Assembly: GCA_004299095.1 (NCBI GenBank)
Contig: SCQQ01000105.1
Span: 1-61,281, forward strand
From: Burkholderiaceae bacterium
Lineage (GTDB): Bacteria; Pseudomonadota; Gammaproteobacteria; Burkholderiales; Burkholderiaceae_C
Direction: 5' to 3'
DNA: 61,281 nt
Below are positions 29,942-33,180 of this stretch, one piece after another. Below the pieces are notes generated by a model that searched no databases, was not told the origin of the DNA, and saw only the letters and a program-made list of their open reading frames with translations. Position 1 is the first letter of the stretch. The number at the start of each line of letters is the position of its first letter. Made by a program: the position numbers and the translations under genes.

Positions 29942-31117
29942 ATGCCATTGACCCACGAACACGAACAGATCCGCGACACGCTCACGCGCTACATCGACGA
30001 GCACATCAACCCGCACGTCGACGAATGGGAAGCGGCCGAACAGTTCCCGGCACACCAAGTCTTCAAAGACCTGGGCGACCTGGGGCTGCTCGGCCTCACG
30101 AAACCGGTCGAATACGGCGGCATGGGGCTCGACTATTCCTACAGCATGGTGATGGCCGAAACGCTGGGCCGCATCCGCTGCGGCGGCGTGCCGATGGCCA
30201 TCGGCGTGCAAACCGACATGTGCACGCCGGCCCTCGCGCGCTTCGGCAGCGATGAACTGAAGCGCGAGTTCCTGGCGCCTGCGATTACCGGCGACCAGGT
30301 GGGCTGCATCGGCGTGAGCGAGCCGGGCGCCGGCAGCGACGTCTCCGGCATCAAAAGCCACGCCCGCAAGGATGGTGACGACTACCTCATCAGCGGCCAG
30401 AAAATGTGGATCACCAACAGCCTGCAGGCCGACTGGATGTGCATGCTGGTGAACACCGGCGGCGACAACGTCCACAAGAACAAGAGCTTGGTGATGGTGC
30501 CGATGCGCGACGGGCCGAATGGCAAGCTCACAAAAGGCATCGAGGTCGCGCGCAAGATTCGCAAGATTGGCATGCACTCCTCGGACACCGGTCTGATTTA
30601 CTTCGACAACGTGCGCGTGCCGCAGCGCAACCGCATCGGCGAAGAAGGCCAGGGCTTCATCTACCAGATGCAGCAGTTCCAAGAGGAGCGCCTGTGGGCC
30701 GGCGCCCACGGTCTCTACGCGCTGGACGAATGCGTGCGCGAAACCATCGAATACGCGCGCCAGCGCCACCTGTTCGGCGGCACCCTGCTGGATCAGCAGT
30801 GGGTGCAGTTCAAGCTGGTCGAACTGCAAACCGAAATCGAAGCGCTGCGCGCGCTCACCTGGGCCGCCGGCGAGCGCTACATCGCGGGCGAGAACGTGTT
30901 GCAGTGGGCCAGCATGGTCAAGCTGAAAGCCGGACGCCTCAACCGCCAGGTGGCCGACACCTGCCTGCAGTTCTGGGGTGGCATGGGCTTCACACTGGAA
31001 AACCGGGTGGCGCGCCTGTACCGCGATGGGCGCCTAGCGTCGATCGGCGGCGGCGCCGACGAAGTGATGATGGGCATCATCGCCAAGACCATGGGCATGG
31101 CGAAGAAACCCGCATGA
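29942..31117 (+). CDS. acyl-CoA dehydrogenase, AtuD-like
   Basis: 391 aa FAD-dependent dehydrogenase, introducing a 2,3-double bond in an acyl-CoA and passing electrons to ETF. FAD-binding motifs IGVSEPGAGSDVSG and MWITNS and the C-terminal QFWGGMGFTLENRVARLYRD are typical. The usual C-terminal catalytic Glu position is Gly (IGGGADE); the base is instead Glu249 in EERLWAG, as in isovaleryl-CoA dehydrogenase, which fits branched substrates. Preceded by AGGAG seven to ten bases before ATG; its TGA overlaps the carboxylase alpha-subunit ATG. Confidence 0.92.
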   Translation: MPLTHEHEQIRDTLTRYIDEHINPHVDEWEAAEQFPAHQVFKDLGDLGLLGLTKPVEYGGMGLDYSYSMVMAETLGRIRCGGVPMAIGVQTDMCTPALARFGSDELKREFLAPAITGDQVGCIGVSEPGAGSDVSGIKSHARKDGDDYLISGQKMWITNSLQADWMCMLVNTGGDNVHKNKSLVMVPMRDGPNGKLTKGIEVARKIRKIGMHSSDTGLIYFDNVRVPQRNRIGEEGQGFIYQMQQFQEERLWAGAHGLYALDECVRETIEYARQRHLFGGTLLDQQWVQFKLVELQTEIEALRALTWAAGERYIAGENVLQWASMVKLKAGRLNRQVADTCLQFWGGMGFTLENRVARLYRDGRLASIGGGADEVMMGIIAKTMGMAKKPA

Positions 31118-33180
31118 ACCGCATCCTGATCGCCAACCGTGGCGAGATCGCCCGCCGCGTCATTGCGACGGCCCGGCGCATGGGAATCGAAACGGTGGCC
31201 GTTTATTCCGACGCCGACGCGGATTCCCTGCACGTGCGTGAAGCGACGGCGAGTTATGCGCTGGGCGGCAACACACCCGCCGAAACCTATTTGCGCGTCG
31301 ACAAGCTGCTCGCCGCGGCGCATGCGACTGGCGCCGACGCAGTGCACCCCGGCTACGGCTTCCTGAGTGAAGACGCGGGCTTTGCGCAAGCGGTGATCGA
31401 CGCCGGACTCACCTGGATCGGTCCGCCGCCCGAAGCCACGCGGGCGCTTGGCAACAAGGCGCACGCCAAAATCCTTGCAGCCCGGCACCACGTGCCGTGC
31501 CTGCCCGGCTACAACGGCGACGACCAGTCGTCCGAGCGCTTCGCCGCCGAAGCCGAGAAAGTTGGCTACCCCGTGATGGTCAAGGCTGTCGCGGGCGGTG
31601 GCGGCCGCGGCATGCGCCTGGTGATGAACGCGGGCGAGCTGCGCGCCGCACTTGAAAGCGCGCGTTCCGAAGCGCTTTCCGGCTTTGGCAACGGCGACCT
31701 GCTGATCGAGCGCGCCGTGATGACGCCGCGCCACGTCGAAATCCAGGTGTTTGCCGACCAGCACGGCCACGCGGTTCACTTGGGTGAACGTGACTGCTCG
31801 GTGCAGCGGCGCCACCAGAAGCTCATTGAGGAAACGCCGAGCCCGGCGGTCACGCCCGAGCTGCGCGAGCGCATGGGCGCTTGTGCCGTGGCGCTCACGC
31901 TCGCCGCGGGCTACGTCGGCGCGGGAACCGTCGAGTTCCTGCTGGAGGGCAGCGAGTTCTTGAGCGCCGCCGGGCCGTCCCGAGGTGCGAGGGCCCCCTC
32001 GGGGGGCAGCGCGGCAGGCGAAGCCGCGAAGCGTGGGGACTTTTTCCTCATGGAAATGAACACGCGCCTGCAGGTCGAGCACACCATTACCGAAGGGTGC
32101 ACCGGCCTGGACCTGGTGGAATGGCAGATCCGCGTGGCGCGCGGCGAGCCGCTGCCGCTCACGCAGGAACAGATTCAGTTCCATGGCCATGCGATCGAAG
32201 TGCGCCTGTGTGCCGAAGATGAGAACTACGTGCCGCACGCGGGGCGCATCCGGCACTTCGCGGCACCCGCGGCGACGCACTTCCAGAGCGCCGCGCTGCG
32301 CTTCGACGGTTTCATCGAAAGCGGCACCGATATCACGCCGTACTACGACGCGCTGCTCGGCAAGCTGATCGTGCACCAGCCCACGCGCGCCGAAGCCATA
32401 GCCGCCATGCTGACCACGCTGGCGCAGGTCGAAGTGCTCGGCTTGCCGACCAACCGGGGCTTCCTGATGGAATGTCTGGACGATGCGCGCTTCCGCAACG
32501 GCGATGCGCTGATTTCTTTCCTCGACCAGCACGCCGACGAACTGCGCGATCGCTTGCACCAGAAGGAACGCACCGCGCACCAGCGCTACGCCCTTGCCGT
32601 CCTGTATGGCCGCGGCACCAGTGCGCTTGCATGCGCATTTGCCGTGCCACTGCGCCTCAGGCACCGCGACGAAACCGCCACGTTCGCAGTGAAAGTCGTT
32701 GCGGACGGCATCGAGGTCGCCGGCGACAACGCGCGGCACATCCGCTTGGCGCCGCTGGGTGATGGTGCCGTGCGCTGCAGCGAAGGCGGCGTCGGCGCGC
32801 AGATTCGCGCTGTCGGCATCCCAGCGACCGATGTCCCACGCCGCTGGCACGCGCAGGCGGGCGACGTCGACTGGTGGTTCGACGACATCTCGTTCGAGCC
32901 CACCGCGGACGCCAGCAACGCCCAGGCGGCCACGGAACTGAAAGCGCCTTTCAACGGCCGCGTCGTCCGCATCGCTGCGGAAACCGGACAGAAGCTCAGG
33001 GCCGGCGAAAGCGCCGTCGTCATCGAATCGATGAAGCTGGAACACAACCTGGCGCCGCGCGCCGCCGCGACGGTGGCCGAAGTGCTGGTCGCGGAAGGCC
33101 AGCAAGTCACGCCGGGACAGGTGCTGCTGCGTTTTGACGTGTCGACTGCACGCGCCGACGCACCCGGAGATCCAGCATGA
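31114..33180 (+). CDS. acyl-CoA carboxylase biotin carboxylase/BCCP (alpha) subunit with in-frame repeat insertion, AtuF-like
   Basis: 688 aa. Biotin carboxylase domain (about residues 1-470): MNRILIANRGEIARRV, ATP-grasp loop AVAGGGGRGMRLV, HLGERDCSVQRRHQK, and MEMNTRLQVEHTITEG. A BT linker domain follows and a C-terminal biotinyl domain with ESMKLEHN, biotinylated Lys641. Between FLLEGSEF and FFLMEMN, where relatives have no extra residues, 27 residues (283-309, Gly/Ala/Ser/Arg-rich) are encoded by an 81-base palindromic GC-rich element. The frame is kept. The insertion lies next to the conserved catalytic core, so it may alter or, if tolerated as a surface loop, spare activity. Start overlaps the acyl-CoA dehydrogenase stop. 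Confidence 0.92.
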   Translation: MNRILIANRGEIARRVIATARRMGIETVAVYSDADADSLHVREATASYALGGNTPAETYLRVDKLLAAAHATGADAVHPGYGFLSEDAGFAQAVIDAGLTWIGPPPEATRALGNKAHAKILAARHHVPCLPGYNGDDQSSERFAAEAEKVGYPVMVKAVAGGGGRGMRLVMNAGELRAALESARSEALSGFGNGDLLIERAVMTPRHVEIQVFADQHGHAVHLGERDCSVQRRHQKLIEETPSPAVTPELRERMGACAVALTLAAGYVGAGTVEFLLEGSEFLSAAGPSRGARAPSGGSAAGEAAKRGDFFLMEMNTRLQVEHTITEGCTGLDLVEWQIRVARGEPLPLTQEQIQFHGHAIEVRLCAEDENYVPHAGRIRHFAAPAATHFQSAALRFDGFIESGTDITPYYDALLGKLIVHQPTRAEAIAAMLTTLAQVEVLGLPTNRGFLMECLDDARFRNGDALISFLDQHADELRDRLHQKERTAHQRYALAVLYGRGTSALACAFAVPLRLRHRDETATFAVKVVADGIEVAGDNARHIRLAPLGDGAVRCSEGGVGAQIRAVGIPATDVPRRWHAQAGDVDWWFDDISFEPTADASNAQAATELKAPFNGRVVRIAAETGQKLRAGESAVVIESMKLEHNLAPRAAATVAEVLVAEGQQVTPGQVLLRFDVSTARADAPGDPA
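31960..32040 (+). repeat. 81-bp palindromic GC-rich element inserted in frame in the biotin carboxylase gene
   Basis: Central hairpin GCCCCC (31993-31998), TCG, GGGGGC (32002-32007); outer arms GTCCC (31977-31981) and GGGAC (32036-32040) also pair. The element is exactly 27 codons. It resembles the REP-like intergenic repeat, with a CCCCTCGGGGGGCAGC core, that I remember as abundant in Comamonadaceae genomes. The encoded residues are absent from the biotin carboxylase family at this position. Confidence 0.75.

Follow-up and report, generated by a model that had tools for sequence, protein, structure and literature searches.

An acyl-CoA carboxylase gene within the 61,281-nt stretch of Burkholderiaceae DNA analysed here (the window; contig SCQQ01000105.1) is interrupted, in frame, by what we read as a copy of a palindromic repeat that is dispersed and non-autonomous. 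With a probability of roughly 0.86, this repeat inserted into the carboxylase and is translated as a tolerable flexible loop, its frame being set by selection. In-frame copies are not rare in the window's genus, contrary to the sequence-only reading, which had taken the insertion for a rare case: five congeners alone hold 61 in-frame arrays. The window's own genome (G000) measures 3.14 Mb, and the other G numbers denote other genomes compared.

The open reading frame at 31114-33180 (+) encodes 688 amino acids with biotin carboxylase and biotinyl domains, the alpha subunit of an acyl-CoA carboxylase. Its closest solved relative is 3u9s (methylcrotonyl-CoA carboxylase alpha), in which residue 285 is followed directly by 286 at the place of the insert. 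The approximately 27 extra residues lie between the invariant glutamates E274 and E314, presumably the counterparts of the metal-binding glutamates in the E. coli enzyme, and we argue from the alignment that the insertion point is likely to be a hairpin turn of the ATP-grasp domain. The linker from GTVEFLL to LMEMNTRLQVEH has 34 residues here versus 6-7 in 64 of 77 matched linkers, a set in which duplicates of the same place and paralogues are counted (6 residues, n=22; 7, n=42; 10, n=1; 12, n=1; 15, n=5). The remaining five long linkers belong to G018 (three loci, one place) and G016 (two loci, one place). The 27 in-frame extra residues first noticed from the letters of the window, encoded by 31960-32040, are thus real. 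The features of the gene and of the insert, with the evidence for each, are the following.

31114..33180, + strand: carrier gene, methylcrotonyl-CoA carboxylase-like (Pfam Biotin_carb_N, CPSase_L_D2, Biotin_carb_C and Biotin_lipoyl (BCCP); best solved relative 3u9s)
31960..32040, + strand: inserted element, about 81 nt and about 27 residues (LSAAGPSRGARAPSGGSAAGEAAKRGD), element frame (+,1) (orthologues without it; copies elsewhere; frame call)
31961..31967, + strand: stem 1 (variable; decayed in the window copy), left arm (family comparison)
31968..31984, + strand: 17-nt loop CGCCGGGCCGTCCCGAG, conserved in the repeat family (family comparison)
31985..31991, + strand: right arm of stem 1, with 5 of 7 pairs to the left arm (pairing count)
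31993..32007, + strand: hairpin of the core, GCCCCC-TC-GGGGGGC, conserved more than any other part, with the core pattern at 31994-32011 (family comparison)
32011..32027, + strand: third, smaller possible hairpin GCGGC-AGGCGAA-GCCGC (by reading of the sequence)
32030..32040, + strand: 3' end AGCGTGGGGAC; family consensus AGCGTGGGGGC (family comparison)

When the own genome and its relatives were searched with the element, seven further copies of an 86-base stretch were found in the own genome (E 2.8e-22 to 6.9e-8), and matches this strong, seven in the same genome, exclude a chance match. The best matches, those in relatives included, share 76-92% identity over nearly the whole length and lie in unrelated genes as well as outside genes. 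Matches at E <= 1e-6 were present in 24 of the 29 genomes of the window's genus, in a search whose per-genome match counts are to be read as "at least". Core copies with up to one mismatch numbered 7 in G000, 31 in G011, 9 in G014, 5 in G024 and 49 in G018, and the control gave 0 in all five. The exact 18-base core occurs in 105 of 150 genomes of the own family, representing 83 of 115 genera, with up to 73 copies; read backward, it was found in none of the 150. A class-wide sample yielded the core in 3 of 281 genomes, two of which are members of the own family, so that outside the family it was seen once in 278 genomes, as a single copy. Plasmid records matching at E <= 1e-3 came from Variovorax paradoxus, Rhodoferax antarcticus and Azoarcus (half the length), and phage records gave no match at E <= 0.01; scanning viral contigs brought up nothing useful either. 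Literature searches, the core letters included, returned no description of the repeat, which is weak evidence given their poor coverage of subscription papers.

The insert is GC-rich and rich in Gly, Ala, Pro and Ser, and some carriers hold tandem copies, as would befit a lineage-specific low-complexity loop born of local slippage or tandem duplication, with no dispersed element behind it. Yet the same sequence of about 80 bp recurs in unrelated genes and outside genes, and its core is family-wide with an empty reversed control. An origin by slippage is already refuted by these dispersed copies, and we give it next to no credence. The insert is instead one member of a palindromic repeat with many copies, both in its own genome and in the family.

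In the family the element consists, in this order, of the variable stem 1 round a 17-nt loop (CGCCGGGCCGYCCCAAG), the core hairpin, the possible small hairpin and the end AGCGTGGGGGC. The nested inverted repeats first proposed for the window copy fared differently. The GCCCCC/GGGGGGC core (31993-32007) holds up family-wide, whereas the outer arms GTCCC/GGGAC are present but are not a family feature, since most copies end GTGGGGGC. The arms of stem 1 are 7-8 nt long and differ from copy to copy, yet they are often complementary; the 5 of 7 pairs in the window copy are counted with G-T allowed. Folded alone, the window stretch is no more stable than its shuffles (z -1.14 as DNA, -0.09 as RNA), and for this reason the case for structure rests on the repeat family.

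That case was assessed on 128 arrays, two of which were dropped for lack of anchors. Taking the first copy of each of the remaining 126, stem 1 reaches at least 6 bp in 70, as against 4.4% when left arms are exchanged between copies, and is shorter in 56. There are 58 distinct arms among the 70 paired stems. In a further count, arm diversity was lower in other genera (14 distinct of 25) than in the window's genus, with 29 of 35 in its in-frame arrays and 8 of 8 in its other arrays. At the site shared by the glycyl-tRNA synthetase gene glyQ (GlyQ) of G000, G001 and G009 the arms differ, and each set makes 7 of 7 pairs (G-T allowed); several other sites behave alike. This highly variable yet often complementary 7-bp stem is a new detail. 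Whether the left arm might be copied from the target was judged by eye in the empty sites of GlyQ, ValS and PEP carboxylase: in GlyQ the arm is not host sequence, whereas at the first ValS site a short GCAGC stretch is present on either side. Because of the G-runs of the element, we also considered an intrastrand triplex motif of the kind outlined in PMC4666352.

Stems that stay complementary as their letters change, as in GlyQ, might suggest a nucleic-acid device, such as an mRNA structure or a terminator-like REP, that is useful in genes and yields its peptide as a by-product. The excess of paired stems over exchanged ones speaks for this idea. It is countered by the 56 arrays with a shorter stem and by loss of the stem in some copies at shared sites (6/7 pairs in GlyQ of G016, 5-6/7 in three carboxylases, 4-5 in L167/L222; the tandem pair in L214 pairs at 2/7). 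Nor does the window copy fold better than shuffles, and at the elements tested no Rfam family exceeded its cut-off, Guanidine-II staying below it with 18.7 bits against 32 (an Rfam sRNA family does match in L281, away from the element). Moreover, imperfect palindromes can be corrected by template switching, and this could preserve the pairing of the arms even if they had no function. We thus regard a device of this kind as unlikely.

For a frame census we used five of the 29 congeners, chosen as complete or as carrying the carboxylase insert, and took every core copy with at most one mismatch, which gave 101 copies in 84 arrays; twelve repeat-bearing stretches of other congeners (L232-L243) stand outside all counts. 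Frames were called from the flanks only, by codon usage trained on the window's genes, and the caller was right for 161 of 161 pieces of 240 bp, the test genes having also seeded the training. Sixty-one arrays are in frame (same frame on both flanks, no stop), 20 have discordant flanks, one contains a stop and two lie at contig ends. Hence 61 of 82 scorable arrays are in frame and 21 are not. In four genomes of other genera the proportions are reversed, with 9 of 44 arrays in frame and 35 not (all exact copies of G151 and G106, 29 of 33 in G133 and 2 of 5 in G047). Fisher's test on the in-frame share gives p 6e-9, a value to be read with the reservation that copies within a genome are not independent and that four genomes are no random sample. 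In a rough sum, assuming that about nine tenths of the genome is coding and that one third of genic insertions survive, a genic to non-genic ratio of about 3:1 is expected, which agrees with the 61:21 seen.

The frames themselves are restricted. Two of the six frames hold 59 of the 61 in-frame arrays (p 6e-26, the two frames having been picked after seeing the data), and 52 of 54 once shared sites are merged (p 1e-22). Frame (+,1) gives peptides like AAGPSQGG-APSGGSA--AAGERGG and frame (-,2) peptides like PPRSPAA-GALPPEGA-AALGRPG, so that a conserved peptide goes with each preferred frame. The exceptions are L221, with a short ORF of 185 residues, and L203, whose ORF crosses masked sequence. 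Of the 9 in-frame arrays in the other genera, 7 use the same two frames; one of the rare departures is a triple tandem array in G106 (L290), which is read in frame (+,2). Stop codons do not explain the restriction, because 53-58 of the 61 copies are free of stops in each of the remaining four frames. What sets these four apart is that they are strongly basic: with 15-20% arginine, their peptides average a net charge of +3.3 to +5.0, whereas the two frames used average +0.7 and +1.0. Tandem copies are spaced by 81, 84 or 87 bases, and 21 of 22 spacings are divisible by three; the sole exception, 83, occurs in an array with discordant flanks. Since the frame would be irrelevant if the element were excised or bypassed, the frame restriction and the spacing in multiples of three argue that the insert is translated.

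The most likely sequence of events is as follows. A repeat of the window's bacterial family would insert at the hairpin turn of the ATP-grasp domain and, once translated, would form a flexible, nearly uncharged Gly/Ala/Pro/Ser loop, which is probably harmless. In the window's genus, insertions may reach coding sequence freely. Purifying selection would then remove frame-shifting inserts together with those reading one of the four strongly basic frames, leaving survivors of 3n length that use just two frames, a single one for each orientation. In such a scenario it would be selection on the peptide, and not the mechanism of insertion, that sets the frame. On the other hand, two exact phases, one per orientation, could reflect a target motif with a codon phase, the frame then being fixed by insertion at a given codon position. 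A flank scan revealed no strong target motif beyond the element's own ends and no consistent target-site duplication of the kind that would mark a MITE (there is a weak excess at scattered offsets, with best flank identities of 0.30-0.42 versus 0.26-0.38 expected), and the two frames used are precisely the near-neutral ones. We therefore consider a mechanistic origin of the frame restriction quite unlikely, and selection on the peptide the better account.

As to the carboxylase itself, most orthologues are without the insert, by alignment 8 of 10 from other congeners. As copies of the element also abound elsewhere, neither of the two results named beforehand as refuting the sequence-only reading came about. 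In the gene tree, inserts occur in 3 of 22 orthologues: those of G000 and G018, which are sisters (support 82/75), and that of G016, which stands apart and holds two full copies of the element in tandem plus a remnant. This forces at least two gains or losses at the site, which on the tree was probably filled at least twice. The sequence-only reading had offered, as an alternative, that the insertion marks a carboxylase losing its function, and the presence of other biotin carboxylase-like places in G000 (8 matches in all) might favour this, since the gene need not be essential. However, the frame is open, and E274, E314, N316, R318 and the biotinyl lysine K641 are kept, being invariant across 37 alignment rows. 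The dN/dS ratio between G000 and its sister G018 is 0.21, within the 0.12-0.36 spanned both by all 28 pairs and by the insert-free pairs. The element also resides inside essential enzymes (GlyQ and ValS). Gene decay is thus very unlikely, and we retain the reading of a tolerated loop.

Those other enzymes provide further orthologous sites, some filled and some empty. In the own genome the sole match to glyQ contains the element. Of 23 GlyQ loci, 20 could be read by pattern: three have an insert at the loop (G000, G001 and G009, the last in frame and missing the core hairpin) and 17 do not. Among the three unread loci, the alignments of G016 and G042 are broken at the loop, and G016 has the element's arms there. 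ValS of G011 bears two inserts. At the second site G023 and G002 have one too, whereas the 11 other loci read have none; the first site is bare in 13 loci, and the G041 alignment is broken at both. Naming of carriers covered 19 protein entries from the 61 arrays (the carboxylase included, ValS entered twice), and further carriers are RecQ, HrpA (in G000 and G011), UvrA, AidB, RecG, RecJ, UvrD, PEP carboxylase and GcvP. The repeat is accordingly found in frame in conserved genes whose orthologues lack it. Beyond the genus, a protein of Rhodoferax antarcticus annotated as Fic-family (WP_075587959.1) contains LSAAGPPQGASTPQGGSDPRSGGARG, which is the frame read in the window copy; on the plasmid of this species (L373:1001-1076), the element lies shortly after the HPFDDGNGR motif of the Fic-family protein.

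The element presumably moves. As a mover we considered the REP-associated RAYT/Y1 transposase (PF01797) and rejected it, because the own genome assembly gave no PF01797 match, although a former or unassembled copy may exist. None was found either in G016, an assembly 86% complete with at least 56 element matches. PF01797 matches occur in 21 of the 29 genomes of the window's genus. In G014, with just 9 core copies, the Y1 transposase has about 20 matches, several of which resemble one another in score or in the way they are split.

Other palindromes were seen alongside this one. The carboxylase insert of G018 (L039) is a longer form that holds a second palindrome. This one matches 26 times in G018, 6 times in G041, 4 times in G017 and twice in G000, but not in G007. 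As 6 of its 22 distinct matches with scored flanks are in frame, this second palindrome is mostly not in frame. The orthologous carboxylase of Comamonas sp. SCN 67-35 (L068:4534-4635) is also interrupted in frame, near its C-terminal half, by an insert of other sequence (RALPDSSGGSGFSREEAHSRLKPLPPQGNVQPPW). The DNA of that insert has 23 matches in its genome, which amount to about 12 places because a palindrome matches both strands. It may perhaps represent a second coding palindrome family.

Protein-coding palindromes were reportedly described by Ogata et al. in Rickettsia in 2000 and 2002 (the Rickettsia palindromic elements, RPE) and in Wolbachia in 2005. By the accounts in PMC2229807 and PMC10969869, RPE are palindromic repeats that occupy intergenic sites as well as in-frame positions within conserved genes, where they encode a conserved peptide; one carrier enzyme, guanylate kinase, is active. 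The present repeat shares the in-frame position inside conserved genes and the conserved peptide, a likeness of kind, drawn from those descriptions. Judged by this analogy, it belongs to a known kind, that of RPE-like protein-coding palindromic elements. The comparison with Rickettsia, and the idea of an in-frame repeat kept as a predicted peptide loop, had been put forward from the window alone, and the copies and their frames bear it out. By the same descriptions, the differences are the bacterial family, the length (about 80 bp here versus 105-146 bp for RPE), the use of two frames, one per orientation, and the several short stems, the first of them highly variable.

Assignment to the REP type, also proposed at first, does not hold in the classical sense. 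PMC12306157 gives a REP as a unit of 14-40 nt that seldom overlaps genes, whereas the unit here is about 80 nt and 61 of 82 scorable arrays in the window's genus lie in genes (those of other genera are mostly not in frame). PMC3733652 reports GTAG/CGTC-tagged REPs that lie inside the ORFs of several bacteria, Thauera and Opitutus terrae among them, the genes being those of DNA-repair proteins, RNA helicases and tRNA synthetases, and different REPs at about the same recB site in two Xanthomonas. DNA-repair proteins and tRNA synthetases are likewise among the carriers here. By the same source those REPs are 20-40 bp long and mostly intergenic, unlike the present unit of about 80 bp, which in one genus is mostly in genes. 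A word search of the main text of PMC3733652 gave no hit for Comamonad-, Delftia, Variovorax or Acidovorax. The sections of PMC2229807 on Correia/NEMIS, ERIC and YPAL describe mini-elements with open frames that may become joined to genes in frame; target-site duplications are marked there for all of them and terminal inverted repeats for Correia and ERIC. The present repeat resembles these as a small non-autonomous repeat with open frames fused in frame, and differs in that no clear target-site duplication was seen.

What is new, then, is a repeat of about 80 bp in another bacterial family, with one acceptable frame per orientation and a variable, often paired stem, and mostly genic among the copies examined in one genus. 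Most of the known in-frame coding palindromes come from Rickettsia and Wolbachia, whose reduced genomes readily explain them through drift. The relatives of the window's genus include Comamonas, Acidovorax and Polaromonas, which are free-living. A broader possibility, which we put forward tentatively and would ourselves doubt more than believe, is that in one genus a family-wide mobile repeat supplies enzymes generally with disordered loops inserted in frame. It would be acceptable to proteins in both orientations, and its stem 1 would be re-made as a palindrome, by template switching or selection, while its letters change, so that the shape stays while the coding sequence becomes adapted to its host protein. 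The five genomes examined hold 5-49 core copies each, with most arrays in frame, and the genus thus provides dozens of natural insertions for which empty orthologous sites exist. These insertions, those in essential tRNA synthetases included, would allow direct tests of how new loops are tolerated by proteins and of how such elements spread.
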